IMG/VR virus record: IMGVR_UViG_3300012964_000059
Span: 1 to 23,140 of that record
DNA from: a virus
Strand: one strand, 5' to 3'
DNA: 23,140 nt
Shown here: piece after piece, positions 3,659 to 21,791 of the stretch
How the letters are laid out: every line of letters begins with the position of its first letter
Numbering within the stretch: the stretch's first letter is position 1
Position numbers and translations under genes: made by a program
The notes under the pieces: generated by a model
What the model was told of the DNA's origin: nothing
Seen by the model: the letters and a program-made list of their open reading frames with translations, nothing else
The model's database searches: none

Positions 3659-3715
3659 ATAAGAAATCACCTATCAACACATTTTCATTGTCTATTTTTT
3701 GAAAAGGAGAACCGC

Positions 3716-4306: not shown

Positions 4307-4349
4307 GTGACAAATGTCACTTTTAATTCAGGAGTGACAGGAATACAAT
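4307..4349 (+). promoter_or_regulatory. Palindrome-activated promoter, copy 2 (leaderless)
   Basis: GTGAC-AAAT-GTCAC (4307-4320) lies 23 bp upstream of TACAAT (4344-4349), the same spacing as in the copies at 6680 and 21338. The centre is about 42 bp upstream of the expected start site, as in class II CRP-family activation, and there is no good -35 box. TACAAT is followed by 6 nt and then the ATG at 4356, so transcription would start at the start codon. Confidence 0.55.
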
Positions 4350-4355
4350 CAGGAA

Positions 4356-4667
4356 ATGAAAGTTTCTCACTTCAAAACTGGAAACCGTGACGACAACGAA
4401 AAGGAAATCATCCTCCTGCTGAACAGGCGCAATGTCAAGTACACGCAGTTCAAGCCGGGGGATGGTGCCGACCTCCTGATTTGGATTTCACCGATGGAAG
4501 TATGGGAAGTGAAAAACCCAAAACAACCACCATCCAAAAGACAGTTGACAAATGAAGAAAAAGAGGCAATGGCCTACTGTCAGGAAATCGGAATACCGTT
4601 TATTGTGATCGAAACACTGGAAGAAGCAAACGACAGGTTGAACCTGTATTTTTCAAAAGGAGATTGA
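4356..4667 (+). CDS. PD-(D/E)xK nuclease, VRR-NUC-like
   Basis: A 103-aa protein with a compact nuclease core. It has an N-terminal helix with Glu (NEKEIILLLNRR), then GDGADLLIW carrying the catalytic Asp, then VWEVKNP giving the ExK pair, followed by a helix and the strand IPFIVIETLEEA. This order fits the VRR-NUC/Holliday-resolvase-like branch, which cuts DNA with Mg2+ during replication and recombination. It begins the second early operon, 6 nt after a -10 box, and the next gene follows after one base. Specificity (flap, junction or plain nuclease) cannot be read from the sequence. Confidence 0.7.
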   Translation: MKVSHFKTGNRDDNEKEIILLLNRRNVKYTQFKPGDGADLLIWISPMEVWEVKNPKQPPSKRQLTNEEKEAMAYCQEIGIPFIVIETLEEANDRLNLYFSKGD

Positions 4668-4668
4668 T

Positions 4669-5475
4669 ATGGACAATAAAACTCGAAGCGTTGTTGATGT
4701 TTTGAATCGCCCGTCGCAGAAGCAGGCTCAGGAAAGAGCCAAAATCGCTGACAATCGAAAACGAGGATCGTGGATCGTCCGCAATGCAAAATGGTTCCTG
4801 TTTGCGTTTTTCAACGCGGTGGCTCTTGTTTTTGACGGACTAGCCGTAACCACCGTCTACTCGCTGACACACGGCAGTATTCTTTTGTCTGCCCTATCGT
4901 TACTTCCAACCGGAATTCCGATGTTCCTGTGGGAGGCCGGGTGGTTGAATCCACTATCAGATACCGAACAAAAACGGCGCGCTATCTGGGGTGTTGTTCT
5001 GAGTGTTGCATCGGCAGCCGTTGTTGGATTTATGGCGATTCTGGCAGACATCGGCGGATCGGATTTGCGTTTCTGGCTTTCGTTTGTCCTGCTTGCATGG
5101 TGCGTTGTGGCTGTTATCGTTCATGGAGTAATGGCGGCGCTCTATTTCTACAAGGACCCGATCACCGTCCGAGATCATTCCCTCCAGGCGACCATTTCAG
5201 AAAATGAATTCCAAAAAGATACCCTCGAAGCTGGAAAGTCCCTCATGGATTCGGCTACTGAAATGCTTACACGCGAAAAAGAATTGCGCGAGACATTTGG
5301 TGACGATGCGGTCAACCGGACACTTGAAATCCTGCTTGGAATCGATCTGAATGGCGACGGAACTGTTGGCGGAAAGAAACAAACTTCTCCCCCAAATCAG
5401 CCAGTCAAAATGTTCAGCGGCAACGGAAGCAAGCCAGAACCGATCAAAGAACCTGTATACCCTCACCAGCGGTAA
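4669..5475 (+). CDS. Multi-pass membrane protein with EF-hand-like loop
   Basis: CAAAAGGAG precedes the ATG. The 268-aa protein has a basic cytoplasmic N-terminus (about 1-40) and four probable membrane spans at about 43-63, 68-88, 105-125 and 133-160. A long soluble C-terminal part contains a charged helix (EMLTREKELRETFGDD) and the loop DLNGDGTVGG. The latter matches the calcium-binding D-x-N-x-D-G core of EF-hand/dockerin loops. The tail is Pro-rich. Function is unknown; a host-membrane takeover or superinfection role is only a guess. It is followed by a strong terminator. Confidence 0.7.
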   Translation: MDNKTRSVVDVLNRPSQKQAQERAKIADNRKRGSWIVRNAKWFLFAFFNAVALVFDGLAVTTVYSLTHGSILLSALSLLPTGIPMFLWEAGWLNPLSDTEQKRRAIWGVVLSVASAAVVGFMAILADIGGSDLRFWLSFVLLAWCVVAVIVHGVMAALYFYKDPITVRDHSLQATISENEFQKDTLEAGKSLMDSATEMLTREKELRETFGDDAVNRTLEILLGIDLNGDGTVGGKKQTSPPNQPVKMFSGNGSKPEPIKEPVYPHQR

Positions 5476-5518
5476 CGGGCGGCCTACCCGTCACCGCGCA
5501 GGAACAGGGCGAAAAACC

Positions 5519-5545
5519 ATCCCCGACGCAAGTCGGGGATTTTCC
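5519..5545 (+). terminator. Rho-independent terminator
   Basis: ATCCCCGAC (519-527 of the 5,000s) pairs perfectly with GTCGGGGAT around the stable loop GCAA, followed by TTTTCC. It ends the operon of the nuclease and the membrane protein. Confidence 0.8.
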
Positions 5546-5561
5546 TCGTTCGGAAACTGAC

Positions 5562-5966
5562 ATGACGGTAATGTCAGACGAGATTTCTTCTTGGCTTGGG
5601 ATGTTGCATGAAGGAACCGCCGAAACAGTCGTCATGTCAGATGGGAAGGGATATTATTTCAACTGCGATGGAACGGCGCATTACCTCTACGAAAATGACA
5701 TGACAAAACGAGAACCGAACGGACGTTTCAAGCGTGTTTACAAAGGAAAGATAGAAAATGAAACAGTTACCTACAAAGGAAAAACAACAGAAATCCCCTG
5801 CAAGACCAGTCATGTCAGATGGTCAACTTCCCGTCATGTCAGATGTAGAATTCGTCAAACAACGGGAAACGATGCTGGACGCTCTGGCAATCCTCAAGGA
5901 CGCGATGAATATGTACCCTTGCAGGATGCCGAATGGCAAGACCCCCGCTCCCAAATTGTTCACTAA
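5562..5966 (+). CDS. Hypothetical protein A, possibly frameshifted into B
   Basis: The frame opens with ATG at 5562 (or ATG at 5571) just after the terminator. About the first 80 residues look like a real protein (SSWLGMLHEG, ETVVMSDGKGYYFNCDGT, YKGKIENETVTYKG). After the overlap with the next frame the sequence becomes Arg-rich and implausible (HVRWSTSRHVRCRIRQ), and the repeated VMSDG motif is then read in the other frame. The gene may end naturally in a spurious tail, continue by +1 slippage at CCC-T near 5796 into B, or be a mutated remnant. Function is unknown. Confidence 0.4.
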   Translation: MTVMSDEISSWLGMLHEGTAETVVMSDGKGYYFNCDGTAHYLYENDMTKREPNGRFKRVYKGKIENETVTYKGKTTEIPCKTSHVRWSTSRHVRCRIRQTTGNDAGRSGNPQGRDEYVPLQDAEWQDPRSQIVH

Positions 5967-6108
5967 TTACGGTGTTTTGCTTGTTCCTTTCCCATCTGGC
6001 GGTCATGTCATTGAAACAGTCGTCATGTCAGATGGGAAAATGGATTTCAAGGTGGATGGAATTTCCATAATTCCCGTCATGTCAGGAGAAGAAGATGAGA
6101 AAAAATAG
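5758..6108 (+). CDS. Hypothetical protein B with repeated VMSDG motif
   Basis: ATG at 5758 has AGGAAAG seven bases upstream, so an independent start is plausible despite overlapping A by 209 bp. The protein contains PVMSDGQLPVMSDV near the N-terminus, a helical core (RETMLDALAILKDAMNMY), and ETVVMSDGKMDFKVDG. The last resembles ETVVMSDGKGYYFNCDG in A, so A and B share a duplicated unit. It overlaps the SH3-like gene by 14 bp. No family is recognised. Confidence 0.5.
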   Translation: MKQLPTKEKQQKSPARPVMSDGQLPVMSDVEFVKQRETMLDALAILKDAMNMYPCRMPNGKTPAPKLFTNYGVLLVPFPSGGHVIETVVMSDGKMDFKVDGISIIPVMSGEEDEKK

Positions 6109-6664
6109 ATTTTTCTTGTCAATTTTACTATTCACAACTTTCGCATGTTCATTTCAGGGTGTTACATCAAGATCAATTGCCGTCATGTCAGTCACGGAAA
6201 CTTCCGAATCGTCTCTTGAAATGACCGTGGAAGCCGAGGAAGGTCTCTGGCTTCGCACGGTTCCGGACGGTCAAGGTGGAATCCAGATCGCTCTAATGCC
6301 GCCAGGAGCCGTACTTATTCCCATGTTTTGCCAGAACTTCGACGGGCAACTCTGGATTTACGGAACCTACGAAAACCAGTCAGGATGGTCGTCAGCAGAA
6401 TTCCTGAGCGGTTCCTGTGATCCAAACATCGTCATGGTGGACTCCGTTCCCGATGCTCCGTTGTACCCCCCCATCCGATATAGATATGTGTGTGTGGACG
6501 AGGCTGGGGTGTATGGGGCTCCTAGGAAAAATCCCGATTGGTTCCTTTACACCATCCCGCGCGGAGAACAGGTACGTGTTCTTGAGATGGCACGCGGCAC
6601 GCCAGAAGCGTGGGCGATGATTGAGACTGCCCACTGGGTGAAGTGGACAGATTTATGCGAGTAA
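6095..6664 (+). CDS. Secreted or lipoprotein-like protein with SH3-like domains
   Basis: This 189-aa protein begins with a basic start and a hydrophobic stretch (MRKNRFFLSILLFTTFACSF), a signal peptide with a weak lipobox (FAC). Two SH3b-like units follow. The first is at about 50-105 (GLWLRTVPDGQGG...WIYGTYENQSGWSSAEFL) and the second at about 130-188 (GVYGAPRKNP...GEQVRVLEMA...WVKWTDLCE). Bacterial SH3 domains bind cell-wall peptides or glycans, so the product probably acts at the envelope, e.g. in lysis or in changing the host surface. GGAGAAG precedes the ATG. One GTCATGTCAG repeat lies in its coding region. Confidence 0.7.
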   Translation: MRKNRFFLSILLFTTFACSFQGVTSRSIAVMSVTETSESSLEMTVEAEEGLWLRTVPDGQGGIQIALMPPGAVLIPMFCQNFDGQLWIYGTYENQSGWSSAEFLSGSCDPNIVMVDSVPDAPLYPPIRYRYVCVDEAGVYGAPRKNPDWFLYTIPRGEQVRVLEMARGTPEAWAMIETAHWVKWTDLCE

Positions 6665-6679
6665 CGATATTCAGAACAA

Positions 6680-6722
6680 GTGACATACGTCACTTCCCCG
6701 TAATGCCTTGTTTTGGTACACT
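6680..6722 (+). promoter_or_regulatory. Palindrome-activated promoter, copy 3
   Basis: AAGTGAC-ATAC-GTCACTT (6679-6695) is the longest of the four palindromes. TACACT (6717-6722) lies 23 bp after its GTCAC core, the same spacing as in the copies at 4307 and 21338, and again no -35 box is evident. It would produce a leader of about 135 nt before the gene at 6865. Confidence 0.5.
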
Positions 6723-6864
6723 TTAGTCAATCCCTGAGTTGTGCGCGATTGGGAGTTAGGGAGTTTATCCACTTCCTGCCCCGTTGTATAAGCCACATCT
6801 GATAAGATGAGACTTTGTGAACGGCAACTTGGGGATGTTTTTTCAAAGAAATACTGGAGAAGTT

Positions 6865-7425
6865 ATGAATTCCAACGATCTACTAAAAGTCTACTCAAAA
6901 CAAGCTATTCAGGCAGATGGGGACGCCGATAAGATGATGTGGAAATCGGCTCTTTTTTGCTCCCGTATCGTTGGGAAGTACGATAGAGGCGCAAAACTTG
7001 GGTTGGCAAGTGACATGAACAGAAGTACAGATACCATCGAAGATCGCGCACACGCCTACATGATGTTCGAGGCGCTCTGCAATCTGGACGGCGGGAAACC
7101 CCGTCGTTTCGTTTTTGCGGCTCGCAGGATGCCGTATATCCACATCTCGCACTTTCGGGCATTGTACGACGCAATGATTACCTATAAGTTACAACCTGAA
7201 AGGATGTTGAATATTCTGTTCGATATTGTGCAGGGCGAGGGAACTCTTTCCAGTCGTGATATTGATAAACACATCCGTTCCCGATACGGTGCGGAAAGGC
7301 CGTGGACTTATTACACCAGCAAGGTAATGAAAGACATTCACAACACCTTGCAGCATCCTGAGTTACCGAAGGAAATCAGGGATGTTCTTGTCAAGACCTA
7401 CGAAAAACTTGGAGACGATGAATGA
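6865..7425 (+). CDS. Hypothetical protein with possible HTH, 186 aa
   Basis: ATG at 6865 is preceded by GGAGA; a GTG at 6817 in the same frame would add 16 residues but lacks a good binding site. The protein is helical and basic. LGLASDMNRSTDTIEDRAHAY has a helix-turn-helix-like pattern, and a C-terminal helical domain contains RSRYGAERPWTYYTSKVMKDIH. A DNA-binding regulator or late-gene switch is a reasonable guess, given its own palindrome promoter and its position at the end of the early region, but no family is recognised. It overlaps the next gene (ATGA). Confidence 0.6.
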   Translation: MNSNDLLKVYSKQAIQADGDADKMMWKSALFCSRIVGKYDRGAKLGLASDMNRSTDTIEDRAHAYMMFEALCNLDGGKPRRFVFAARRMPYIHISHFRALYDAMITYKLQPERMLNILFDIVQGEGTLSSRDIDKHIRSRYGAERPWTYYTSKVMKDIHNTLQHPELPKEIRDVLVKTYEKLGDDE

Positions 7426-7595
7426 ACGTATCTGAGTTTATTACCGTGACCATCTGGGGGAGTATCCTGATACTCATGTTTGGAATTTTGACTGGGGTAT
7501 TTCAGAACAATTTCACATCCTGGTTCTTCTTTACCTTCCTGTGCTTGTTTGGAATCGTAAAATATTCCATGGATAGGCAAACAAAAAGGCCGTGA
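7422..7595 (+). CDS. Small two-helix membrane protein, 57 aa
   Basis: ATG overlaps the preceding stop (ATGA). Two hydrophobic segments span about residues 6-26 (FITVTIWGSILILMFGILTG) and 32-46 (TSWFFFTFLCLFGIV), followed by a basic tail (DRQTKRP). Size and topology are like those of class II holins, but without a lysin next to it this stays speculative. The stop codon lies inside the bidirectional terminator. Confidence 0.55.
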   Translation: MNVSEFITVTIWGSILILMFGILTGVFQNNFTSWFFFTFLCLFGIVKYSMDRQTKRP

Positions 7596-7612
7596 ATTCA
7601 CGGCCTTTTTTT
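7583..7612. terminator. Perfect bidirectional terminator
   Basis: A 28-bp perfect palindrome at 583-610 of the 7,000s (core GGCCGTGAATTCACGGCC) is flanked by A5 and T7 runs. It serves both the plus-strand early genes and the minus-strand tail operon that converge here. Confidence 0.9.
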
Positions 7613-7625
7613 ATTTAACAAGAAA

Positions 7626-7958
7626 TCATATATTCTTTTTTTGCAACCTTTTTTCCAACTCTTCGACATACACTACCAAATCCAGCACGATTAGAGCAAT
7701 AGATTTATCTGTCTTTGCCGCTTCTGCTATCGCCTCGGCATGTGCGAGCAGGGGATCAGCTTTTGGCTTGGGGGACTGGACAATAAAATCGGGGGCAATA
7801 ATAGGCACATCGAATTTTTGTTCTGTCTTTACAAGATACTTTAGTCTGTCCGCTTCGGACTGAATCTTCTGAGCTTTGATTTGAGCTAGTTCTTCTGCGG
7901 TTAGTTCGACTAAATGTTCCTTACCATTTGAACAGTCTACAACAAGTTTTGAAACCAT
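7626..7958 (-). CDS. Small protein at the end of the tail operon, 110 aa
   Basis: Start and upstream stop overlap as TAATG. The N-terminal half is helical and charged (LTAEELAQIKAQKIQSEADRLKYL), the middle has a Pro-rich linker, and the C-terminus has a Leu-rich helix (LIVLDLVVYVEELEKRL) suited to coiled-coil formation. Last position after the fibre gene suggests a fibre-associated or assembly protein; this is inferred from context only. Confidence 0.6.
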   Translation of the reverse strand: MVSKLVVDCSNGKEHLVELTAEELAQIKAQKIQSEADRLKYLVKTEQKFDVPIIAPDFIVQSPKPKADPLLAHAEAIAEAAKTDKSIALIVLDLVVYVEELEKRLQKKNI

Positions 7959-8755
7959 TATTTTGCTCCGTATAATGTTGCTCTTGTTCCAGCTTTCCAG
8001 TTAGAACTAGAGTGTGTAATAAGTTTCACCTCTGTAATTGCTGCCGTGTTTCGCCAATTCGTGACAGAATTCCAGAAGTAATTATTGGTAACGGTAGAAT
8101 CGGAAAACCCTGAACAGACAAAGCAGACCTTCTCGAATGTCGTACCCAAGTAGTTCGGGATAATCATATCAACAACGGCCTGCATGGAACCACGAACTAC
8201 ATTTGTTCCGGGTATCACGCCTGCGTATGGGATAGAGGAACCTGCCACGCCTGCCGCCGCAATGGTGGCGTGATTGCCATATAAATATTGGGTGTCGTAA
8301 TTTGCACCCGTATCCGCATTGAATTGAACTGTAAGATTATCTACTGAACCAAGAGTAGAGCGTCCACTTAAAACTAATCGCAGGTGCTTATAGGTAGCAG
8401 GTATGGAGGAAAATGTGATGCTTGCCGCATCCGCTCCTAAAGTACTGTCGGCGATTAGTGCCCAGTCATGCCCAGCATGATTTCCCGCCGCCGCCTGTGT
8501 TGCCCCAGTTCCAAGAGTATGGTGCAGGGAGGACGCGGCGGCGTCTGTGTCTGGAGATTGATGCGTGTTTGCTTGTGCCAGTTTCGGGCTGTCCGTTGTA
8601 CCTGTGTGGGTGTGGGCAACAAGAGCATACAAGAGCGTTATTGCACTTTTGATACCTGCCCACGTCAGGCGATTATTTGCACCAGCACGCGCAACGATAA
8701 AGTCATCGGCGTCCTGCGGGGTGGTTCCATTGGGGTAGGAGGAAATCTTTGCCAT
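7958..8755 (-). CDS. Tail fibre / tip protein with HxH motif
   Basis: This 265-aa protein starts MAKISSYPNG, a common opening of phage fibre proteins. It has HTHTG near residue 48, followed by a His/Ala/Gly-rich stretch to about 95. HxH motifs in fibre stalks bind metal in trimeric structures such as T4 gp37. From about 100 on, a beta-rich domain (TFSSIPATYKHLRLVLSGRS... to TRATLYGAK) looks like a receptor-binding head. It is translationally coupled to the gene that follows (TAATG). Confidence 0.7.
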   Translation of the reverse strand: MAKISSYPNGTTPQDADDFIVARAGANNRLTWAGIKSAITLLYALVAHTHTGTTDSPKLAQANTHQSPDTDAAASSLHHTLGTGATQAAAGNHAGHDWALIADSTLGADAASITFSSIPATYKHLRLVLSGRSTLGSVDNLTVQFNADTGANYDTQYLYGNHATIAAAGVAGSSIPYAGVIPGTNVVRGSMQAVVDMIIPNYLGTTFEKVCFVCSGFSDSTVTNNYFWNSVTNWRNTAAITEVKLITHSSSNWKAGTRATLYGAK

Positions 8756-8756
8756 G

Positions 8757-9188
8757 CTATTTCTTCATCAATTCCAATGCTCTATTCCAATCATAGAACT
8801 TCCTGAATATCTCCGGCATGTTTTCTTCTTTTCCGCCACTCCACTCGAAAATATAGGCATAGAGTTCTGCCGATGTGATTCGGAAGGGGTTATAGTCATA
8901 CACTCCGCGGAATGCCATGATGTTGGTTGCAATTCTGGACGGGTGGCCGTTTTGTGCCTCGACCAGCACGTAGGTAATCACCGCCTCTTTGAATTCATGT
9001 TTATTGCTGATCCAGCCCGCCTCCCAATCCAAGCGATGAGCGATTTCATGAATACATGCGGAATCCGTCCTGCACCACCACAACCCTGAAATAGAGTTGA
9101 ATCCGCCGCCATCACTTTGGTTCGGAAAAGGAATGGATAGAAAAATAAAAAACATCAAAAGCAGAATAAACGCAGGAATCTTTTTCAT
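8757..9188 (-). CDS. Secreted HExxH metallopeptidase-like protein
   Basis: The 143-aa protein has an N-terminal signal peptide or anchor (MKKIPAFILLLMFFIFLSIP). The zinc motif CIHEIAHRLDWEAGW is near residue 45 and SAELYAYIFEW near 105, where a Glu could be the third zinc ligand, as in lethal-factor-like gluzincins. It starts in a TAATG overlap with the fibre gene before it. Placement among fibre genes suggests degradation of host surface or envelope proteins. Substrate and exact family are unknown, and the protein is short for a complete gluzincin. Confidence 0.6.
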   Translation of the reverse strand: MKKIPAFILLLMFFIFLSIPFPNQSDGGGFNSISGLWWCRTDSACIHEIAHRLDWEAGWISNKHEFKEAVITYVLVEAQNGHPSRIATNIMAFRGVYDYNPFRITSAELYAYIFEWSGGKEENMPEIFRKFYDWNRALELMKK

Positions 9189-10261: not shown

Positions 10262-10267
10262 ATTGTT

Positions 10268-10273
10268 ATTATA
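10268..10273 (-). promoter_or_regulatory. -10 box of a leaderless fibre-gene promoter
   Basis: On the minus strand TATAAT is followed by AACAAT and then the start codon ATG at 10261. This places the expected start of transcription at the A of ATG. No clear -35 is seen. The promoter would compensate for separation from the tail operon by the inserted endonuclease gene. Confidence 0.5.
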
Positions 10274-10335
10274 CTCTTTTCATGATAAAATTATTTGTAT
10301 GAACGGTTAGTCAGAACCGCCAATATTTCTTGAAT

Positions 10336-10378
10336 AACACCTGCTTTGTTTGCTGACTCAAACAAGGTGGGTGTTTTC
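10336..10378. terminator. Hairpin with T-run ahead of the HNH gene
   Basis: AACACC (336-341) with TTGTTTG (346-352) pairs with CAAACAA (359-365) and GGTGTT (370-375), followed by TTC. It may be a terminator for transcripts entering from either side, or an attenuating leader of the endonuclease gene. Confidence 0.45.
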
Positions 10379-10391
10379 TATTGGAGATACA

Positions 10392-10844
10392 ATGAAACTA
10401 ATACCATTAACTCAGGGAAAATTCGCTAAAGTGGACGATGAGGACTACGAATGGTTGACACAATGGAACTGGTATTTTGAGAAAAGAGGTTATGCAGGAA
10501 GGCGCTCTGGAAACAAAATACTTAAAATGCACAGAGAGATAATAAAAACTCCAGACGGGTTGTTTACAGATCACATAAACGGAGACAGAATTGATAATCA
10601 GAAATCAAACTTGAGGATATGTACTATCATGCAAAATACACATAACTCAAGAGTTCGCAAAGATAATCTTTCTGGATATAAAGGCGTGTCGTGGTGTAAA
10701 AGAGAAAGAAAATACCACGTTAGAATTTATTGTAACTACATCAAGAAATCAATCGGATATTTTGATGACGTTATTGAGGCTGCTTTAGCATACGATAAAG
10801 AGGCGAGGAAATTATACGGTGAATTTGCAAGAACAAATTTCTAA
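10392..10844 (+). CDS. HNH homing endonuclease with AP2 domain
   Basis: ATG at 10392 follows TTGGAGA; an in-frame upstream start at 10350 lies in the hairpin. The 150-aa protein has the HNH_3 pattern: MHREII near residue 48, DHINGDRIDNQKSNLRI at about 61-78. A C-terminal AP2-like DNA-binding domain follows (GYKGVSWCKRERKYHVRI, then AALAYDKEARKLYGEFA). Such free-standing endonucleases cut related phages at intact sites and spread by repair. It lies antisense between two tail genes, ending 8 bp from the converging tail gene. Confidence 0.9.
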   Translation: MKLIPLTQGKFAKVDDEDYEWLTQWNWYFEKRGYAGRRSGNKILKMHREIIKTPDGLFTDHINGDRIDNQKSNLRICTIMQNTHNSRVRKDNLSGYKGVSWCKRERKYHVRIYCNYIKKSIGYFDDVIEAALAYDKEARKLYGEFARTNF

Positions 10845-10851
10845 TCTCCTG

Positions 10852-12141: not shown

Positions 12142-14588
12142 TAGAAACCTGCCTCGTCTGCCATTGCATCCGCCGACCAGTGGCGGGGAGCATAATAAAT
12201 CCGCATACTTGCCGAAATGTCGTTTTCCATAAGCGCCGCAATCCTGTTTTCTCCGGGTAACAGACTCCACGCCCGCAGATCGCTGCCGGGTAGAATGGCA
12301 TAGGAAATATCTCCTCGAATATTGCTCAAGACCTGTCCCGTCCCGAAATTGATCGTCACTTCCTCGCTGCTGAGGATCTCCAGATCGGCATACACCCGCT
12401 TTTGGGTGGTTTGGTTCTCCAGCCAGCGGAGAGTACACGGCCCCACGATATAAACAATGGGATTGGTCTCCGCCGTTCCCATCACATCCAGCAGGGTGAT
12501 GGAGGCATAGTCGGCAAGGGTGGCGTTTGGCGAAACGAATATATTCCCAGCCTTATCCCACTTCGCCGCGTAACAGGTTGCGGCAACCTCAATGTCCAGG
12601 TTCACCCACGTTGCACCGTTGTACATGGCGACCCCGTTGGCATTGGTGCTTCCAATACGTGTAAATGCGCCTGCCGCAAGGATGTTATCGTGGTTGTCAA
12701 CATCGAGATTGTAAATAACATCGTTCGCACCCGCTCCGAGGTTGTACCAGGCCGAACCGTTCCAGTAGGAGATATACAACATGGGTTGAGCGCCGCTGAG
12801 GGTGAAATCTCCGCCTGCATACAGGCGTCCAGCCATCGTCAGAACCAATTTGCGAACGGTATTGTCGAACCCATCCCCAAGCACAAAGAATTCATTATAG
12901 GCGGTCTCGTACAACGCGACGTAGTTCAGTGCAAGATTTCCGGGGCTGGTTCGTTCGTCTGTGAACGCACCTCCAAGAAATACCTGGGTTCCATCGTTTG
13001 AGATCACAATGGAATACACCGTATTGTTGAGTCCGAGATAGGTTCCCATGTTGTGCCACATGGAACCGTCCCAGCGGGCGCAGTATCCGGCGGTGGTTCC
13101 TCCAGCGGTGGTAAACGATCCGCCCACGTACACATCCCCGTTCGGCGCAACTTTCACGGAGAATGCTGCCGCATTGAGTCCGGTTCCCAAAGCACTCCAT
13201 GCAGACCCGTTCCACTTTGCAATGCGGTTGCACGCCACGCCGCCGATGTTGGTGAAATCGCCAACCACGTATATATCTCCAGTGGGGGATATGGCAACGG
13301 CGTTGATGACCGTTCCCGTGTCCACGCCCGCTCCGTAACCCCGCCACTGGGTTCCGTCCCAATAGGCAATACAATCGCTGTGAATTTGTGGATCAATGGC
13401 TGTCGGCGAATTGTTGGATAGGTTGAAAAGACCGACTGCAATGATCTCTCCCTTCCTGCCAACCTCGAAATCGTAGATGACATTATTCATGCCGCCGTTC
13501 ATGGCACTCCACGCCCCGTTGTATCTCTGCATGGCGTAGTTGATCGTACCGCGTTCACGGAAATTGATCTGTTCCGCCTCGTAGTTATCGTCAAGCAGGT
13601 ACGGCGAAACGGCAAGGAAGCGTATCGGAAACGACTGAAAGAAACGATTCCGCACATCCCAGCTTCCCTCAAGTCCGGCCTCGTAGCGCACGAGACAATA
13701 CACGGGAATGTCACCATCCTTGTATTCGATGGTGAATTCCTGCCCGCCGTTCGTTCTATCGGGTCGAATGATGTCGAAAAGCATCCTCCGCAGGGCGTGA
13801 AGTTTTCGGAGTGACTTGTCGTTCTTGTTGTGCAAATCGGGTGAATTGGCATGGAAGGTGATCGTAACCACACGATCCAGAGTTTTTGTATTTTGATAGT
13901 ACGAACCTGGCGCATCCGCATAAGACTGAATGTTGTTTCTCACCGGAGCGACTCCCAATCCTCCAATGACCGTGATGTACAAATCCTGTTCGTCCCGGTC
14001 ACATCCGGCCAACTCCACCCACCTGCCCCCCTCACGGGTATAGGCGGAGCGGGTTGAAATACTTCCGTGTTCGTAGATATTCCAGATACAACCCGGCTGG
14101 TCTCCGTCGCAATAGGTAGTCGGATATGCTTTTGGTTCCAATTGGAGCCCGTCGGCATAGAAGGTGACGGCCTGTGCGGTCTTATCCGTTTCAACGTACA
14201 CCCGCACGTCATCGCCTCCGTGACACCTTCCAGAAACGTATAAACGTTGCCATCTTTGGTCAGTTAGTGAAACGGTTTCTGAAACCCACTGTTTCCCGGA
14301 AAGATTGTCGATCAAGCGCAGGCGCACTTTTCCAGTCCCGCGCACGTAAACACTTGCGGTAAGGGGGGATTGAATTCCAACCAGCCAGGTCAGGCGATAA
14401 TAGAACCCCTCATACACCACACTTCCATTGGTGATGGATTTCAGGGAGGCGAATCCGAAACGTGCCCGATCCAACGTCCTTGAGATCGTACTGCCAGCGG
14501 CGGTGTATCCCGTCGTATCAAATCGGAGGGACGGATTCTTGATGTAGTTCGTCGTATTGTCCGGTATTAAAATTCTTAGACTTGCCAT
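12141..14588 (-). CDS. Distal tail protein (Dit-like) with CBM and inserted propeller
   Basis: In this 815-aa protein, residues 1-165 look like a CBM4/9-type jelly roll (NYIKNPSLRFDTTGY; YADGLQLEPKAYPTTYCDG). Residues about 170-340 carry the Dit-like domain (RVVTITFHANSPDLH; LRKLHALRRMLFDIIRP; PIRFLAVSPYLLDDN). Residues about 345-690 hold at least six propeller-like repeats (AYWDGTQW, AKWNGSAW, ARWDGSMW, SYWNGSAW with DVYVGGSFT-type strands). From about 705 the Dit C-terminal domain resumes (ADLEILSSEEVTINFGTGQ; AILPGSDLRAWSLLPGENR). The propeller is thus inserted between the halves of Dit. It probably decorates the tail tip for host recognition. Confidence 0.8.
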   Translation of the reverse strand: MASLRILIPDNTTNYIKNPSLRFDTTGYTAAGSTISRTLDRARFGFASLKSITNGSVVYEGFYYRLTWLVGIQSPLTASVYVRGTGKVRLRLIDNLSGKQWVSETVSLTDQRWQRLYVSGRCHGGDDVRVYVETDKTAQAVTFYADGLQLEPKAYPTTYCDGDQPGCIWNIYEHGSISTRSAYTREGGRWVELAGCDRDEQDLYITVIGGLGVAPVRNNIQSYADAPGSYYQNTKTLDRVVTITFHANSPDLHNKNDKSLRKLHALRRMLFDIIRPDRTNGGQEFTIEYKDGDIPVYCLVRYEAGLEGSWDVRNRFFQSFPIRFLAVSPYLLDDNYEAEQINFRERGTINYAMQRYNGAWSAMNGGMNNVIYDFEVGRKGEIIAVGLFNLSNNSPTAIDPQIHSDCIAYWDGTQWRGYGAGVDTGTVINAVAISPTGDIYVVGDFTNIGGVACNRIAKWNGSAWSALGTGLNAAAFSVKVAPNGDVYVGGSFTTAGGTTAGYCARWDGSMWHNMGTYLGLNNTVYSIVISNDGTQVFLGGAFTDERTSPGNLALNYVALYETAYNEFFVLGDGFDNTVRKLVLTMAGRLYAGGDFTLSGAQPMLYISYWNGSAWYNLGAGANDVIYNLDVDNHDNILAAGAFTRIGSTNANGVAMYNGATWVNLDIEVAATCYAAKWDKAGNIFVSPNATLADYASITLLDVMGTAETNPIVYIVGPCTLRWLENQTTQKRVYADLEILSSEEVTINFGTGQVLSNIRGDISYAILPGSDLRAWSLLPGENRIAALMENDISASMRIYYAPRHWSADAMADEAGF

Positions 14589-16915
14589 TAGCCACCTGCC
14601 AATGATGACATCATATTGAAATCAGCGATAACCGGCTCGTGGTTTGCGTTCGTATTGACGGTCTGGCTGAAATAGTTGTTCGTGCTGGAGTTGTTCGTAG
14701 TCTGCGAGGCCGCCGAAGCCATCATTTGCGGAGCCGCCGCGGCGGGCATGACCATTGCTCCCATTGCGGATTGCATGGCCTTTTGAAGCATCGGGATATT
14801 CGACAGGATGCCCTGTGAGAAACCTTCCATTGTCAATTCACCGAACTCCCATGTCACCTGTGATGGAGAACGCATCTTCAACACGGTTTTTGCAGTCGTC
14901 AAGGCCCCGTTAATGGCCGTGGACATGGCGGTTTGCAGTAACGTTACATTACTGAAAATTCCCCCGACAATTCCCATGATGATATTTCTGCCAACCTCCC
15001 ACCAGTTTATATCCGTGGTAATGGCTCTTTGCATCATATTTCCGATTGAAATAATGATCTGTCCGAGGGGTCCAAGTCCCATCAGGATACCATTTATCAA
15101 TCCTCCTATGATCTGGGGGCCAGCGCGCACAAAATCATCAATCAGGCTTCGGATGGTGCTGTTTGAGTTCGTATAGAATTCAAGGAATTTCTGCTTGACA
15201 ATCTCAAAGGCAGTTATGAATCCAGATATGAATATCCCTATGACAACTCCGTAGATAAGGCCAATGATTGCGGCTGTCAGAACGATGATCCCAACTACAA
15301 AAGCCTCCCAGAATGTTACCAGGGTTGCAATGGCGAGTACGATACTTCCCACGAACAGGATGACTCCAAACATCAACTTCGCAATCCAGCCCGCCACTTC
15401 AAGAATAATGGCAAGTTTGGCGAGTCGTTCAATCCACAGGGCAATTTCATCCTTGTTGTCCTTGATCCACTGGGTCAATTTCTCGATGCCGGGAATAAGG
15501 TCTTTGTGTATCCAGTCGGAGAGGCTTTGGTTGGGTTCCCCGCCAAAAGCAGTTACCAGCACGTCGCCTATCGCTCCTGCAAGGGGGAGGAGGGCGATAA
15601 AGACGGGAATCAGGTCATCCCGAATGAACGGGACAAGCACTGTTCCGATCCAGCTCGCTACATCCTTTAAAACAGGCAGGAAGTCGTTCATAAACCAGGA
15701 ACCGACTTTTTCGAGAAGTGCGAGACCGTCTCCTGAAAGCCAGTTGACAAATCCAGTAAAGGCAGGAACCAAAAAGTTGGAAACCCAATCCACTACGTTG
15801 CGTACCCAGTCTACAATATCATCCGAATGGACATCCAGCCATTCGGAAACATTGGTCAAGCTATCCAGTATCATCACTGAAAAACTGCTTGCGCTGGGGG
15901 CAAGGTCGAGTATTTTTCTGACGATGTTGGAAAGAGAATCTCCTATTTTTGTAGCAACAGACGTAAATTGATCCCACCTCGTTTCGCTGGTTAGATTATC
16001 CATAAACTCAGCTACGCGGCCGCCGACAACATCCAATATCGGCTTGACAACATTGAATCCGATGATTGATTTGACAAAATCCTTCAAGTTAGCCGTCGCA
16101 CCTTGAAAAGTTCTTGCCATGTTTTGCGCGGCACCCTGAAAACGTTCTTCCACGATCTGCGAGAAAGCAGTCATGAAGGCATTGACGCCCTCTGTGGATG
16201 TTTTGAATTTATCAAACTCCGCACCAGTCAACCCCACATTTTCCTGCATCCTTTGTAGAATATCGTTCACTGGAACAAACGCGCCGCGAGCCAGGTCGTT
16301 CATTTCACGTTGAGTTACTTTTCCCTGCTGAACCATTTGTCCGAAGTTGACGATAATTCTTTCAATCTCCACATTACCCAAACCCATCCCTGCCGCAAAA
16401 GAGGTGATGTCTTTCGTTAAATCCTGAGCCTCCGTTGCCGCAAAGCCATAGGAACGGGCAAGGGTGAATACATTGGCAATATCCTGATTATCGTATGGAG
16501 TGGTTGCGGCAAGTTTTTGAAGCCACGCAAATTGTTCCTTCGTCAGTTCTATTGATTTTGTCTGAGCATCGTTCAAATCCATCCCGGATTCGACGAGAGA
16601 ATTGAAGTTCAGGCGTTGAAGGCGTAATTCAAGAGTCTGGAATTCGCTTCCCGCTTCGATGGTCGCTGATACCAATTCGCTGATCTGTGTTACCACCCAT
16701 TGCACCGCATCGGCAAGGATTTCCCCCAGCGCATAAGCCAGTGTGTTGGCGATGAAATCCGAAAATCCTGAGAGAATATTTCCCAGGCCGTCGAACGCCT
16801 TGCCCAGCAGTCCAGTGGACGGTATAAGTCCCTGAATACTGCTGTCCATCTTATTCATGCCGCCGAGGAAATCCTGCAAGCCCTCGACAACCGCTTCAAC
16901 ACCTACTTTTTCCAT
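14588..16915 (-). CDS. Tail tape measure protein
   Basis: The 775-aa protein has the typical layout. An N-terminal tape-measure domain covers about residues 90-290 (SGMDLNDAQTKSIELTKEQFAWLQ; FGQMVQQGKVTQREMNDLARGAFVP), followed by amphipathic helices. A hydrophobic block of several possible membrane spans lies at about 505-575 (AKLMFGVILFVGSIVLAIAT...). The C-terminal end has Ala/Asn-rich, low-complexity sequence. It sets tail length and may help DNA cross the membrane. It follows the tail assembly chaperone pair directly, the conserved order, and overlaps the Dit gene as TAATG. Confidence 0.9.
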   Translation of the reverse strand: MEKVGVEAVVEGLQDFLGGMNKMDSSIQGLIPSTGLLGKAFDGLGNILSGFSDFIANTLAYALGEILADAVQWVVTQISELVSATIEAGSEFQTLELRLQRLNFNSLVESGMDLNDAQTKSIELTKEQFAWLQKLAATTPYDNQDIANVFTLARSYGFAATEAQDLTKDITSFAAGMGLGNVEIERIIVNFGQMVQQGKVTQREMNDLARGAFVPVNDILQRMQENVGLTGAEFDKFKTSTEGVNAFMTAFSQIVEERFQGAAQNMARTFQGATANLKDFVKSIIGFNVVKPILDVVGGRVAEFMDNLTSETRWDQFTSVATKIGDSLSNIVRKILDLAPSASSFSVMILDSLTNVSEWLDVHSDDIVDWVRNVVDWVSNFLVPAFTGFVNWLSGDGLALLEKVGSWFMNDFLPVLKDVASWIGTVLVPFIRDDLIPVFIALLPLAGAIGDVLVTAFGGEPNQSLSDWIHKDLIPGIEKLTQWIKDNKDEIALWIERLAKLAIILEVAGWIAKLMFGVILFVGSIVLAIATLVTFWEAFVVGIIVLTAAIIGLIYGVVIGIFISGFITAFEIVKQKFLEFYTNSNSTIRSLIDDFVRAGPQIIGGLINGILMGLGPLGQIIISIGNMMQRAITTDINWWEVGRNIIMGIVGGIFSNVTLLQTAMSTAINGALTTAKTVLKMRSPSQVTWEFGELTMEGFSQGILSNIPMLQKAMQSAMGAMVMPAAAAPQMMASAASQTTNNSSTNNYFSQTVNTNANHEPVIADFNMMSSLAGG

Positions 16916-17203
16916 CTATTTCTTCCTCGGGGTTTTTCGTTTTGCGGCCTTCGCCTCCGCATCAGATTGATGATTTTTCATCGCAATTTCAATGCGGCGC
17001 TGGGCAATGATTATGGCACGTTCCATTGGCTCCATGCCATACCATTGCTCGATACTCTTGTCTCTTTCGATGCGCGCCGAGTGTTCCTCGAATAATGGAA
17101 CCAAATCAGGGGCGAGTTTACGCCACGAGATTCCGGCACTAATCAGGTTATCCACTTCAAGGCGGGTAATGTTCTCTTGAACGTCACCCGCCCTCTTGGT
17201 CAC
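16916..17203 (-). CDS. Tail assembly chaperone, downstream frame (T part)
   Basis: A 95-residue frame opens with GTG inside the end of the preceding gene and lies immediately before the tape measure gene. It is charged and helical (EWYGMEPMERAIIIAQRRIEIAMKNH-like pattern, Lys/Arg-rich end KRKTPRKK). By position it is the T part of a G/GT pair, normally made only as a fusion with the upstream frame through ribosomal frameshifting. The GTG start has no clear binding site, supporting fusion rather than free expression. Confidence 0.7.
   Translation of the reverse strand: MTKRAGDVQENITRLEVDNLISAGISWRKLAPDLVPLFEEHSARIERDKSIEQWYGMEPMERAIIIAQRRIEIAMKNHQSDAEAKAAKRKTPRKK
17184..17189 (-). promoter_or_regulatory. 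Probable +1 frameshift site GGG-TGA-C
   Basis: On the minus strand the upstream frame ends GAG-GGC-GGG-TGA-C. A tRNA on GGG slipping forward by one base onto GGT would continue as GGT-GAC-GTT in the T frame. UGA-C is a weak stop context, as in the bacterial RF2 frameshift site, and AGAGGG just upstream could act as an internal Shine-Dalgarno. A -2 slip would give the same frame. Confidence 0.5.
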
Positions 17204-17735
17204 TCCCAGAAAAGGTTTCAGCGGCGCTTACGTCCGCCTCCTTTACTCCCGAAAGGCGCTTGACATGATCGCCGATCAACTGCATATCCTTGTCGGTGGG
17301 AGCGGCGATGTAGAGAACCCAAGCAATGTAACGCCACGCCGGGCTGTCACTCACAACCGGAAGTCCCAGGGCTTTGTAATCCTTGATCCAAGTGTCATCC
17401 TTCGGATCGGGAACGCCCTTTGGTTTGCTTTTCAATTTCGTTCCAAGACCGATCAACGCGTTCAGCATGGCGGAGTTGTACTCCATTTCCCATGCCTTCA
17501 CGCGCTTGATGTAGTCCGGGTCGTCCGGGTTTTCCATCGTCCTCCCCATCGCCTCCATAAATACCTGCGGGGGTTCCGGGCGTTCTTTGGCGGTCATGAT
17601 GCGGATCAACATGCTTGGATTCGCCTGATGGACGTACAGTTCAACTCCGGTGGAAAGGGTGATGTAATCCTTCTCACCCTTTTCCACCTCGTCGATCTTC
17701 CTTGCAACCGATTTATCTGCTTTCGAGATACTCAT
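17184..17735 (-). CDS. Tail assembly chaperone, upstream frame (G part)
   Basis: The 183-aa protein lies between the tail tube and tape measure genes, the fixed position of the phage tail assembly chaperone. The N-terminus (about 25-50: KDYITLSTGVELYVHQANPSMLIRIMTAKE) has the beta-strand pattern of these proteins. A helical middle includes YNSAMLNALIGLGTK and the acidic C-terminus ends SGSDQEGG. AGAGGAAG precedes the ATG. With the frameshift the fusion would be about 270 residues. These chaperones coat the tape measure protein during tail assembly. Confidence 0.75.
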   Translation of the reverse strand: MSISKADKSVARKIDEVEKGEKDYITLSTGVELYVHQANPSMLIRIMTAKERPEPPQVFMEAMGRTMENPDDPDYIKRVKAWEMEYNSAMLNALIGLGTKLKSKPKGVPDPKDDTWIKDYKALGLPVVSDSPAWRYIAWVLYIAAPTDKDMQLIGDHVKRLSGVKEADVSAAETFSGSDQEGG

Positions 17736-17766
17736 TGCTTCCTCTGCTTCCGATACGATTCTCTTG

Positions 17767-19272
17767 TTACGCGCCGCTCATCTTGAGCGCAATGCCAGCG
17801 GTTCCATTGGACGCCAGACCAACCGCAAAGGCGGTATTGGCGTACTTTGTGCAACCGCGTACTTTACTGAGATAGGAATTCGCAACAGCGGTTCCCTTCT
17901 TGCCCTGCGGAAGTACAACCCACTCATTGCCAGCGGTGATGGTGCGAAGAATGTAGGACTGACCACCGGAACGGGCGGCGATAAATCCCTCCGCCTCGGA
18001 TACGAATTCAATATCGTCGATGCGCGTGTAGGTGGCGGGCAGGCCAATCTGTGTCCAGGTAACGCCTGCGTTGACGGTCAACCAAAGTTTTCCACTACCG
18101 CCAGCACCTTCGCCGACCAGCCATGTCTTTGCATCCCACATCCAACATGCGCCCAGGTTGACACCCACGGAAGGACCTGTCACGGTTTCCCATGTGGAAC
18201 CGCCATTGGATGTATACACCACGGCATTTGAATTTCCAACCGTAAGGACATTCTTGGTATCAAGCGCATGGACGGCATTGAGATTTTGTGTGGTCTCCAC
18301 TCCGGCATCCTGCACTTCCACACTGACCTTGAAGTTCTTCGAGAAGTAGATATATCCGCCGTTGCCGACGATCCATATGTGGCGAACGTCCGCAACAGAC
18401 ATGGCGTTTGGATTCTTGCCAAACACAAAGCCGGTGTTGACCTGATTCCATGAATTTGCGTTCGTGTAAACTTCCTCAATATCAGTCCAGTGGATTTCGT
18501 TGGCGGTGTTCGAGATCAATACCAAAGCACTTCCGACAACCGCAGAATCGACGATGTTCTCATTGGAGAACAGGGTGGAAATGGTCTGCGAGGAGAACGA
18601 TTCTCCGCCATCCTCCGAGTAGAGCAGGGAGGGTTGCGTGCCAGGGGTTGCACTTGCGCCCGCCATTGTCATCAAGACCTTCGAGCAGGTGTCCGGGCAG
18701 TCGTCACAGTTCTTCCCGTTGTATACGTCCACGGTGTAGATTTCCCGTGTGGTGGAGGCGGAACCGATCTGATCCTGACGCATGTACAGATATTCCCAAT
18801 AATCCTCGGCGGTCATGTCAACCGCTTCATTGGTTGGATTGTTCTCATCCAGACCGTATGCGCCGAAGTTCTCGTATCCATGCCCTGAGATTTTCCCGTC
18901 CGGGAAATATACCCACTTTTCGCCGCCTTCGGTGAAGTCCTGCGGATTTCCGCATTTCCCGGAAAGGGCGAAGATGTCCACGCGGCACTGCTTGTTCTTC
19001 CACTCCAAAAGGATGGATTTCTGGGCGGTGGAACGAATTCCGATTGCAAGCGTGGCGCGTTCCCGTTCAGCCGCTACCGTTCCAACCTGAATGTCACGGT
19101 TGAAGTTGTTCGGGTCGGGTACGCTGATCTTTGTTTCCTCGCCAATGGTAATGGCGGGATCGTCCGAGAACTTCCCCAGCGCGAGGAATTGCGGAGATTT
19201 CGAGGGATGCACGCCGCCCTCGACGTACCAAACGCGCTGGTTGATTGCAGTAAGTTGTTGCAAGTTAGTCAT
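17767..19272 (-). CDS. Major tail tube protein fused to Ycf48-like propeller
   Basis: A very strong AGGAGGT precedes the ATG, fitting a highly made protein. Residues about 1-190 look like a tail tube domain (ALGKFSDDPAITIGEETKI; ERERATLAIGIRSTAQKS; WVYFPDGKISGHGYENF). From about 200 on there are repeated blades of the Ycf48/BNR kind (LLYSEDGGESF, WIVGNGGYIYFSKN, VVYTSNGGSTWETV, LWLTVNAGVTWTQIG). Four cysteines lie in the linker (CDDCPDTC). The propeller would stand out from the tail tube surface in many copies, perhaps to bind host or environmental surfaces. Confidence 0.8.
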   Translation of the reverse strand: MTNLQQLTAINQRVWYVEGGVHPSKSPQFLALGKFSDDPAITIGEETKISVPDPNNFNRDIQVGTVAAERERATLAIGIRSTAQKSILLEWKNKQCRVDIFALSGKCGNPQDFTEGGEKWVYFPDGKISGHGYENFGAYGLDENNPTNEAVDMTAEDYWEYLYMRQDQIGSASTTREIYTVDVYNGKNCDDCPDTCSKVLMTMAGASATPGTQPSLLYSEDGGESFSSQTISTLFSNENIVDSAVVGSALVLISNTANEIHWTDIEEVYTNANSWNQVNTGFVFGKNPNAMSVADVRHIWIVGNGGYIYFSKNFKVSVEVQDAGVETTQNLNAVHALDTKNVLTVGNSNAVVYTSNGGSTWETVTGPSVGVNLGACWMWDAKTWLVGEGAGGSGKLWLTVNAGVTWTQIGLPATYTRIDDIEFVSEAEGFIAARSGGQSYILRTITAGNEWVVLPQGKKGTAVANSYLSKVRGCTKYANTAFAVGLASNGTAGIALKMSGA

Positions 19273-19281
19273 GGGAACCTC

Positions 19282-19575
19282 CTAAACAGTTTCCTTTTCA
19301 AACTCTGAAAATTTTTCAAGTATCAATTGAGCGTCCACGTTATATGCTTCCTGCAACGCTCCAATCAGGACATGGGGTTTGCGGGCATCCTCATATTTCA
19401 GGATTCCGCGTTCGTATAAAATGTTGTGCAGGCGGGTCGCAAATGGTTCAGGGAGACCCAGTGCGTCCACAAGCCCTTCGACGGGTCCGATAATGATGTA
19501 TGCGCCTTTTTGTTCATCTGGAGATACATAGGCCTTGTATTTTCTTTCTCCTTGCATTACTTCCTGTGTCTCCAT
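19282..19575 (-). CDS. Hypothetical tail-region protein, 97 aa
   Basis: ATG at 19575 follows AAAAGGC and lies 4 bp after the upstream stop; the longer start at 19623 would overlap that gene by 44 bp. The protein is alpha/beta (KYKAYVSPDEQKGAYIIIGPVEGL) with a helical C-terminus (ARKPHVLIGALQEAYNVDAQLILEKFSEF). It lies next to the tail tube gene, so a head-tail joining or tail completion role is possible, but no family is recognised. Confidence 0.6.
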   Translation of the reverse strand: METQEVMQGERKYKAYVSPDEQKGAYIIIGPVEGLVDALGLPEPFATRLHNILYERGILKYEDARKPHVLIGALQEAYNVDAQLILEKFSEFEKETV

Positions 19576-19579
19576 TGGG

Positions 19580-19813
19580 TTATGCCTTTTCAATCCAATG
19601 CCATGTTCCAGGCTTTGAACCATCCGCCAAGAATGGAAGATGCTGATTGAAAAATATTCCAGTCGGATTTAGAACACAAAGAGAAACAATTCCCTGGTCA
19701 ACATCCTCAATTTCGGTAATGACTGCCGCTCGGTGAACATTCTGAGGAAATTCACCTTTTGGAGTTCCATACGCAACATAATGAACCATTCTTCCTACCG
19801 TTAGACCTTCCAT
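19580..19813 (-). CDS. Conserved small phage protein, 77 aa
   Basis: The pattern VGRMVHYVAYG, HRAAVITEIED, VSLCVLNPTGIFFNQ, GTWHWIEKA is that of a small protein widely found in tailed phages, of unknown function, usually near structural genes. Its predicted fold is a small beta barrel. GGAG precedes the ATG. It starts 10 bp after the connector gene ends. Confidence 0.75.
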   Translation of the reverse strand: MEGLTVGRMVHYVAYGTPKGEFPQNVHRAAVITEIEDVDQGIVSLCVLNPTGIFFNQHLPFLADGSKPGTWHWIEKA

Positions 19814-19822
19814 GATATTCTC

Positions 19823-21037
19823 CTATTTATTTACTCTTACACCTGAATGCTGTATAGTTCTGTACGCGTACAAAGCGCCTTGAGACGTGCCAAGACGGTT
19901 CGCCGCAAGTTCGGCGGTCATTCCGCCCTCTTCCTGCGAAGAAAATGCGCCGTCCCTGCGCCATTTGTCTATGAACTGATTGACGTTACTGCATCCGCAA
20001 ACTGGACGTTCAAACTTTGATGCGGCGAAAAAGGCAATTGCGTATTTCCATTGCGGAGAAAGTTCAACGTAGGGACGGGCCAGGGAGTTATCACGATACC
20101 CTGAGTAATACCAAAAACGAACCTGGTCTGGTTCTCGACATGCTGAAAATTCCGCCGAATCAAATGTCTGGTCGGTGGAGTTCCATGAAGCAGGAGCAGG
20201 CACCGCAAAACCAAGACGGTGATCTCGCAGATGGAAACAAGCTGCCTGGGAACTAAATTGGCACGCCACGCACGTTCCACAACACCCAACAGGTTCGCTC
20301 TCCCACATTAATTGCGCTTGCGTAGCCGGGTCGTTGTAGACACGATAAATGTCAACCGTCGTCTCGAAATTTCCCGCCGTTTCTGCGTCCAGCGGATCGG
20401 GATTGAGTGTTTCCAGTTTGTTTGCCGCAACGATCTGCCAAATCTTGAAAGTAACAACTGCATTTGCGCCGGAAAGTGAAACCTTGATGGGTTTGATCTC
20501 CCAGCCGTCATCCCCGCTCTTTGCCGGATAGTACGCACGGATTTCGTTTATGTCCGTCACCGTGGTTGGGACGGTAACTGTGCAGGTCTCCTGAAACGTA
20601 TCGGAATCTGTGTCGGATCGAACCACTGCCGCTCCTGCCTGAATAACAGCCTTTGCCTTCACACCCCCAGAGATGATGTATCCCTTCCCCAACTCCACAG
20701 ATTTCAATTGATACCGTGGATTGATCCCGTACAGGTTGAATGATTCAGGGAACGCGGGTCGGGGGTAGGGGAGACGTTCGTCAACCGTCCAGTCAGGAAT
20801 AAGATTGAACCCGATTTCCCGTGCGATTTCCTGCTCCGCCTGCTGAATTGCCATTGCAATTGTGTCACGGCCTACACGGTCTGAATGCTGCCAGTCACTT
20901 TGGAAAAAAATATCGCCACACGTATTGTTACGGCGGAACGTAGAGGATGACAGTTGATTAAACGCCAAAGGATCGAGTCCGATAATTTGAGACCATTCAT
21001 CCAGACTGAGCCATGTTCGTATGTCGGAACGAGCCAT
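19823..21037 (-). CDS. Probable neck / head-tail connector protein
   Basis: This 404-aa protein starts MARSDIRTWLSLDEWSQIIGLDPLAFNQ, a pattern reminiscent of phage connector proteins, with helices containing IQQAEQEIAREIGFNLIPDW. The middle is beta-rich. A Cys-rich stretch (CCGTCVACQFSSQAACFHLRDH) and CGCSNVN near 355 suggest metal binding. The C-terminus is helical (GGMTAELAANRLGTSQGALYAY). Its place before the tail tube gene supports the connector role; the exact family is not certain. It overlaps the upstream zinc-ribbon gene by 41 bp. GGAAGGAA precedes ATG. Confidence 0.5.
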   Translation of the reverse strand: MARSDIRTWLSLDEWSQIIGLDPLAFNQLSSSTFRRNNTCGDIFFQSDWQHSDRVGRDTIAMAIQQAEQEIAREIGFNLIPDWTVDERLPYPRPAFPESFNLYGINPRYQLKSVELGKGYIISGGVKAKAVIQAGAAVVRSDTDSDTFQETCTVTVPTTVTDINEIRAYYPAKSGDDGWEIKPIKVSLSGANAVVTFKIWQIVAANKLETLNPDPLDAETAGNFETTVDIYRVYNDPATQAQLMWESEPVGCCGTCVACQFSSQAACFHLRDHRLGFAVPAPASWNSTDQTFDSAEFSACREPDQVRFWYYSGYRDNSLARPYVELSPQWKYAIAFFAASKFERPVCGCSNVNQFIDKWRRDGAFSSQEEGGMTAELAANRLGTSQGALYAYRTIQHSGVRVNK

Positions 21038-21314
21038 TTGCAGTATTCCTTCCGCGCTTTTGGATCTCCTCTGCCCGCCGCCTCGTTTTTACAAAATAGT
21101 ACCAAAACGATGGATGGGACGGTGGTAAATCCTCGAGCCGACGAATAGAGTCGTCCAACAACTTGGACGAGTACCAGCATGGCTTCCATAGCTGACAATG
21201 TGGACATTCATACCCTTCAACTGTGTAAATATTATCCAGTGGCCTTCTGGATAAGTTTCTCCAATCCACCATAACCAAATTTCGGCAGTTTGGACACAGG
21301 TCAGGCAGTTCCAT
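20997..21314 (-). CDS. Zinc-ribbon protein, 105 aa
   Basis: The ATG at 21314 lies exactly 6 nt after TATAAT (21326-21321), so leaderless expression supports this start. The longer frame from 21344 would start inside the palindrome. LCPNCRNLV and YECPHCQLW form a treble zinc-ribbon (CxxC-x~30-CxxC), followed by a helical basic part. It is the first gene of the tail operon here, where a normal phage would have capsid and portal genes upstream. Function is unknown; nucleic acid binding or regulation is possible. Confidence 0.6.
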   Translation of the reverse strand: MELPDLCPNCRNLVMVDWRNLSRRPLDNIYTVEGYECPHCQLWKPCWYSSKLLDDSIRRLEDLPPSHPSFWYYFVKTRRRAEEIQKRGRNTANGSFRHTNMAQSG

Positions 21315-21320
21315 ATCGCA

Positions 21321-21326
21321 ATTATA
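21321..21326 (-). promoter_or_regulatory. -10 box of the tail-operon promoter (leaderless)
   Basis: TATAAT on the minus strand is followed by TGCGAT and then ATG. The palindrome at 21338-21351 overlaps the place of the -35 element, so its binding protein would block or replace -35 contact in this direction while facing the plus-strand -10 at class II spacing. Confidence 0.5.
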
Positions 21327-21337
21327 CTTCAAAAGTA

Positions 21338-21380
21338 GTGACATTCGTCACGTTTCAAGGGTAGGAAAATAAACTATAAT
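21338..21380 (+). promoter_or_regulatory. Palindrome-activated promoter, copy 4, facing the cassettes
   Basis: GTGAC-ATTC-GTCAC (21338-21351) is followed 23 bp later by TATAAT (21375-21380), the same spacing as at 4307 and 6680. It faces the first cassette gene (21453) with a leader of about 65 nt. It would serve as the cassette promoter in place of the Pc promoter that normally lies in an integrase gene. Confidence 0.55.
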
Positions 21381-21771: not shown

Positions 21772-21791
21772 GGCTAAAGCAAAGGAATCTT

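Follow-up and report, generated by a model that had tools for sequence, protein, structure and literature searches.

A palindrome 23 bp upstream of three phage -10 boxes is probably a class II site for a host activator of the CRP/FNR family

The virus record IMGVR_UViG_3300012964_000059 of IMG/VR, analysed here at its whole length of 23,140 bases (the window), contains four copies of the palindrome GTGAC-N4-GTCAC, beginning at 655, 4307, 6680 and 21338, and the last three lie at one and the same distance from a -10 box. The question that this locus raises is whether such a distance is the trace of a regulator and, if so, of what kind and encoded by whom. We believe that the copies at 4307, 6680 and 21338 are probably class II sites for a host-encoded, FNR-like activator of the CRP/FNR family, and we put the probability of this explanation, read as it is from sequence, at about 0.77.

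The three palindromes, GTGACAAATGTCAC (4307-4320), GTGACATACGTCAC (6680-6693) and GTGACATTCGTCAC (21338-21351), stand on the plus strand and are followed, 23 base pairs (bp) further on the same strand, by the -10 boxes TACAAT (4344-4349), TACACT (6717-6722) and TATAAT (21375-21380). The third promoter lies between a minus-strand tail operon and plus-strand cassettes, and its -10 box points into an integron-like cassette array (21453..23018, plus strand). At 16-18 bp upstream of the three -10 boxes, TTGACA is matched at no more than three of six positions. All four palindromes are intergenic, the window has no further GTGA-N6-TCAC site, and against an expectation of 0.01 palindromes per shuffled window none of 100 shuffles reached four. 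For three of the eight flanks to agree in any one spacing from 13 to 33 bp, the probability is about 4e-4 when the flanks are taken at random from the window and 4e-3 when they are made by shuffling intergenic sequence. The initial annotation had listed the four intergenic positions and the 23-bp distances to boxes without a good -35 element; these are exact, and the excess over shuffled sequence, on which its proposal depended, is borne out.

A symmetric GTGA-N6-TCAC, a fixed 23-bp distance and the lack of a good -35 element are the sequence features of a class II promoter, and all three phage promoters have them. If transcription starts about 7 bp after the -10 box, the centre of the palindrome would fall near -42, the class II position. 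The start expected at the 4307 promoter coincides with an ATG at 4356, so its message may be leaderless; in several host promoters of the 23-bp kind, described below, an open reading frame (ORF) likewise begins within about 10-50 bp.

The same architecture is found in chromosomes of Chloroflexota. The pattern GTGACATTYGTCAC-N(15-31)-TATAAT, scanned over 84,980 species genomes, returned 70 stretches, which were assigned to phyla by record title. In every one of the 24 Chloroflexota matches the palindrome and the -10 box are 22-25 bp apart (exactly 23 bp in 14 of them), and the 46 matches outside this phylum range over 15-31 bp, with some excess at 22-24. Ornatilinea apprima, a cultured Anaerolineae strain, is among the carriers of the motif. 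By our own arithmetic, which assumes uniform spacing and counts some promoters more than once through related genomes, 24 of 24 in four of the 17 spacing values has P ~1e-15. The two richest genomes, both of Anaerolineae, have exactly 23 bp in 27 of their 70 candidate pairs (P ~5e-18); the 199 genomes of the class gave 24 matches, 20 of them at 21-24 bp, against one for the reversed control pattern.

A relaxed search, in which GTGA-N6-TCAC, the 23 bp and TATNNT were fixed and the inner bases left free, gave 33 host sites and none in the control. Nearly all of them read GTGAYAWWTRTCAC, usually with T and often with TA next, and many end in TATAMT. The host motif obtained in this way consists of GTGAYAWWTRTCACTA and then TATAMT, lacks a -35 element and stands 5' of anaerobic and redox genes. 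The phage sites match this consensus once C is permitted at the ninth position, where some host sites also have C. Across 40 host promoters the sequence at -35 resembles shuffled spacers and no clear -35 element emerges, which is what an activator acting in its place would lead one to expect.

This last observation bears on the alternative that survives best, namely that the palindromes are operators at which a repressor (cI-like, TetR-like or LexA-like, encoded by phage or host) blocks these promoters. It is true that 14-bp palindromes near promoters are typical of operators; in addition, an opposed -10-like TATAAT (21321-21326, minus strand), pointing into the tail operon, lies 11 bp from the 21338 palindrome, which when occupied could hinder polymerase there, and a repressor gene could be missing from a record that is possibly incomplete. 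However, a repressed promoter should keep its -35 element, which is absent from the three phage sites and indistinct in the 40 host promoters, and a spacing of 23 bp held constant across unrelated host genes is expected of an activator in contact with polymerase instead. We consider a repressor unlikely.

If an activator is preferred, its source has to be considered. The window yielded no protein with an HTH_Crp_2 domain, and eight other viral records carrying the motif, several of which are 64-145 kb long, yielded none above the cut-off; an activator borrowed from the host is therefore the simplest account. It might be objected that the regulator is encoded by the phage outside the record, with a specificity resembling that of the host protein: both ends of the contig lie inside attC-like repeats and the scan of ORFs in the window recognised no gene for head or packaging proteins, hence the record may be incomplete. 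The eight other records speak against this, as does the abundance of motif and spacing in host chromosomes, and we find the objection quite improbable, more so than a repressor. One of these eight, an 88-kb phage contig, carries four sites on the same strand, all with exactly 23 bp to the -10 box; one of them lies 48 bp 5' of a gene whose product has a DNA polymerase beta-clamp domain. A search with DnaB for close relatives of the phage gave homologues at 23-39% identity only, without the palindrome in the loci examined, and a search with its 815-residue tail protein found none among viral contigs.

The host activator that we favour is connected with the CRP/FNR family by a variant of the motif. 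A palindrome GTGACNNNNGTCAC, mostly AAAGTCACA, with a -10 box downstream at 22 bp, directly adjoins CRP/FNR genes in two host genomes, and for this reason we link the CRP/FNR proteins of these hosts to the palindrome; that such a protein binds and activates the phage sites is a prediction made on this basis. This second motif class of Chloroflexota, GTGACNAAAGTCACA-like and with 22-bp spacing (four loci), heads genes for NosZ, DUF438/hemerythrin, NapC/NrfH-like and COX1-like proteins; the genes of nitrogen-oxide metabolism beside it include one for a flavodiiron protein. It shares with the phage sites the palindrome and the downstream -10 box, but the phage sites fit the 23-bp class instead.

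The content of the 23-bp class was judged from the first downstream genes, 20 of which were scanned. Among their products are a tungsten-type aldehyde:ferredoxin oxidoreductase, an AMP-binding synthetase, a HypB-type GTPase, a thioredoxin-like 2Fe-2S ferredoxin (HoxE/NuoE type), a NapC/NirT-type cytochrome, a multihaem cytochrome, a ThiS/MoaD protein, a pyridine-nucleotide oxidoreductase with a 4Fe-4S domain, a sulphur transporter and several ArsR-family and PocR-domain regulators. By this gene content the regulon looks anaerobic or redox-related, which is why we presume an FNR-like signal. The initial annotation had attributed the sites to a CRP/FNR-like class II activator, probably of the host, and had suggested a scan of phage and host genomes for the motif with the 23-bp spacing; the sharp recurrence in Chloroflexota, the 22-bp variant beside CRP/FNR genes, the anaerobic and redox genes headed by the 23-bp form and the phage records without an HTH_Crp_2 protein above the cut-off all speak in its favour.

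Considering these observations together, we propose the following mechanism. A dimer on GTGAC-N4-GTCAC, about 42 bp before the start, would replace the -35 element and, by class II activation, bring RNA polymerase of the host to the -10 box that lies 23 bp further on. The phage promoters would in this way join a regulon with which Anaerolineae-like Chloroflexota, as hosts, control anaerobic and redox metabolism, and two phage operons together with the cassette array would be on while the host regulator is active, the activating condition being most likely low oxygen or an altered redox state. It is tempting to go further and to propose that Chloroflexota phages have repeatedly wired operons, and once an integron-like cassette array, into the redox regulon of the host by class II architecture; infection and cargo expression would then depend on how oxidised or reduced the cell is. 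We hold this wider proposal only tentatively.

A redox-related regulon also brings to mind Rex, the redox-sensing repressor with the consensus TTGTGAAW4TTCACAA (PMC2883068), whose operators have the outer GTGA...TCAC in common with our sites. However, the host motif with its inner bases free disfavours a Rex regulon, since GTGAY...RTCAC is present in nearly all of the 33 host sites and GTGAA...TTCAC in none, and TTGTGAA-N4-TTCACAA is not the pattern found; we regard Rex operators as very improbable indeed. A chance meeting of unrelated palindromes with -10-like hexamers, which are short and for which the spacing coincidence alone is not extreme (the two values given above), is just as hard to credit against four palindromes where shuffled windows predict 0.01 and the same spacing recovered independently in host genomes.

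The cassette array behind the 21338 promoter is a series of small ORFs with an attC-like repeat (GCCTAAC...GTTAGGC) after each of them; attC repeats between small ORFs are the mark of an integron, and arrays of the same type are found in one Anaerolineae genome. Repeats of this kind recur at the left end of the contig (1-130). No integrase was recognised beside the array among the ORFs scanned, which were a part of the total, and the array reaches the contig end. Directly after an attC-like repeat, the terminal stretch 23025-23140 appears by eye to be the 5' part of a tRNA gene (GGTGGTGGAATTGGCAGACAC...); ARAGORN reported no complete tRNA there. Seven other viral contigs of IMG/VR with the same attC type, several of them with multiple attC-like copies, lack the palindrome in the part examined, so its proposed control of cassettes is not general to such arrays and a palindrome promoter on all of them is rejected. 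These contigs may represent cassette-bearing phages, or else integrons of bacterial chromosomes that were classed as viral by mistake.

The phage host may be an Anaerolineae-like member of Chloroflexota. The 20-bp attC core of the array has exact matches in 2 of 298 Anaerolineae genomes (no outgroup control), one of which holds the array of the same type, and part of the 815-residue tail protein has matches among Anaerolineae proteins, at no more than 46% identity over 222 residues, in 17 of 150 genomes (again with no outgroup control).

Several points weigh against a host activator at these sites. Most of the 199 genomes of the class have no match with a perfect TATAAT, and many of the host matches come from related genomes and are thus not independent. 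The regulon is not clearly present in the two Anaerolineae genomes that share the attC type, so that a regulon in genomes of this kind was rejected. Each host genome has several CRP/FNR paralogues, none of which is singled out for the 23-bp class; a choice by orthology was tried and abandoned, a related CRP/FNR protein being present in 19 of 22 genomes and the paralogues too many to decide. The possible incompleteness of the record makes a phage-borne regulator elsewhere conceivable. Finally, the palindrome at 655 does not follow the 23-bp rule, its nearest -10 box, TAAAAT (708-713), being 39 bp away.

That box belongs to what reads as an ordinary promoter, TTGACT-N16-TAAAAT (686..713, plus strand, -35 element TTGACT at 686-691), before the replication genes. 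The palindrome itself, GTGACATTTGTCAC (655-668, plus strand), sits inside a terminator-like hairpin (637..686, plus strand) which is strong by folding (-39.1 kcal/mol, z -7.7), long and perfect in appearance, and followed by a weak T run. We presume that this copy may be a terminator, besides or in place of a protein site. Class I activation was considered as well; the distance to the promoter is near -61.5 yet out of phase, and the site is within the hairpin.

As to the genes themselves, the plus strand carries a replication module (846..4302) with an O-like initiator (1084-1944, a weak winged-helix match in the domain scan), a DnaB helicase (1941-3383, domain scan) and small ORFs. The genes 3' of the 4307 promoter (4356..6664, plus strand), whose arrangement as an operon is suggested by gene order, encode a 103-residue protein with a weak TnsA-like nuclease match, a 268-residue protein, small ORFs and a 189-residue protein with a weak SH3_3 match. 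Two genes follow the 6680 promoter (6865..7595, plus strand), to which ORF and domain scans assigned no function. By their gene content these plus-strand operons are candidate early genes. The minus strand is occupied by a long tail module with tape measure and minor tail proteins (domain scans), within which a plus-strand gene for an HNH endonuclease with an AP2 domain (10350-10844) is probably a homing-endonuclease insertion. The 815-residue minor tail protein (12144-14588) has at about residues 400-660 a domain similar to repeats of large Anaerolineae proteins, perhaps a shared surface-binding domain. Seven plus-strand copies of the repeat GTCATGTCA (5631, 5809, 5833, 6002, 6022, 6076 and 6182) are crowded into about 550 bp, and two inverted copies lie at 5558 and 5696; the region 5558-6190 covers several small overlapping ORFs.

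Two further groups with a palindrome were seen in the scans. A spacing peak across viruses at large is not clear, because AT-rich contigs dominate; thirteen such contigs (G+C 0.32-0.35) have one near-identical promoter, GTGACGAATGTCAC-N23-TATAAT, in common and likely represent a different host group using the same architecture. At eight loci in Ruminococcus genomes the palindrome is 28-31 bp from TATAAT and often forms two overlapping copies, GTCACTTT...GTGACATTTGTCAC; it is probably the site of an unrelated regulator.

For a phylum whose transcriptional regulation is little known, the result offers a concrete promoter rule that can be tested (GTGAYAWWYRTCAC, 23 bp, TAYAMT). It also presents a phage that appears to rely on an activator of its host rather than supply one, and a cassette array whose expression would be conditional.

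In E. coli the CRP site is TGTGA-N6-TCACA and the FNR site TTGAT-N4-ATCAA. Our sites resemble class II promoters of both proteins in having a symmetric 14-bp core, GTGA-N6-TCAC, about 42 bp before the presumed start and in place of the -35 element. They differ from the E. coli sites in the half-site GTGAY, which combines the G of CRP with an FNR-like fifth base, and from CRP/FNR class II promoters in general in the spacing and the flanks (TA after the palindrome), which are particular to the present group.

In the open-access literature we found no description of the motif in Chloroflexota or of a phage cassette array under such control, and a class II site of CRP/FNR type before cassettes only for Vibrio. 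This closest precedent is Pc, the cassette promoter in the superintegron of Vibrio cholerae. There the CRP box is centred at -41.5, overlaps the -35 element and provides class II activation of the cassette array by cAMP-CRP, the same box serving also the adjacent integrase gene (PMC3948777). The phage cassette promoter (21338-21380) has the same layout and the same proposed mechanism. Unlike Pc, however, it is located on a phage contig and in a different phylum, with a GTGAY half-site, a regulon that looks redox-related and no integrase recognised beside the array. New here are the phage-borne array, the phylum and the 88-kb phage contig with the same design four times; a second case, unrelated to that of Vibrio, would suggest that cassette expression has repeatedly become tied to host metabolism.

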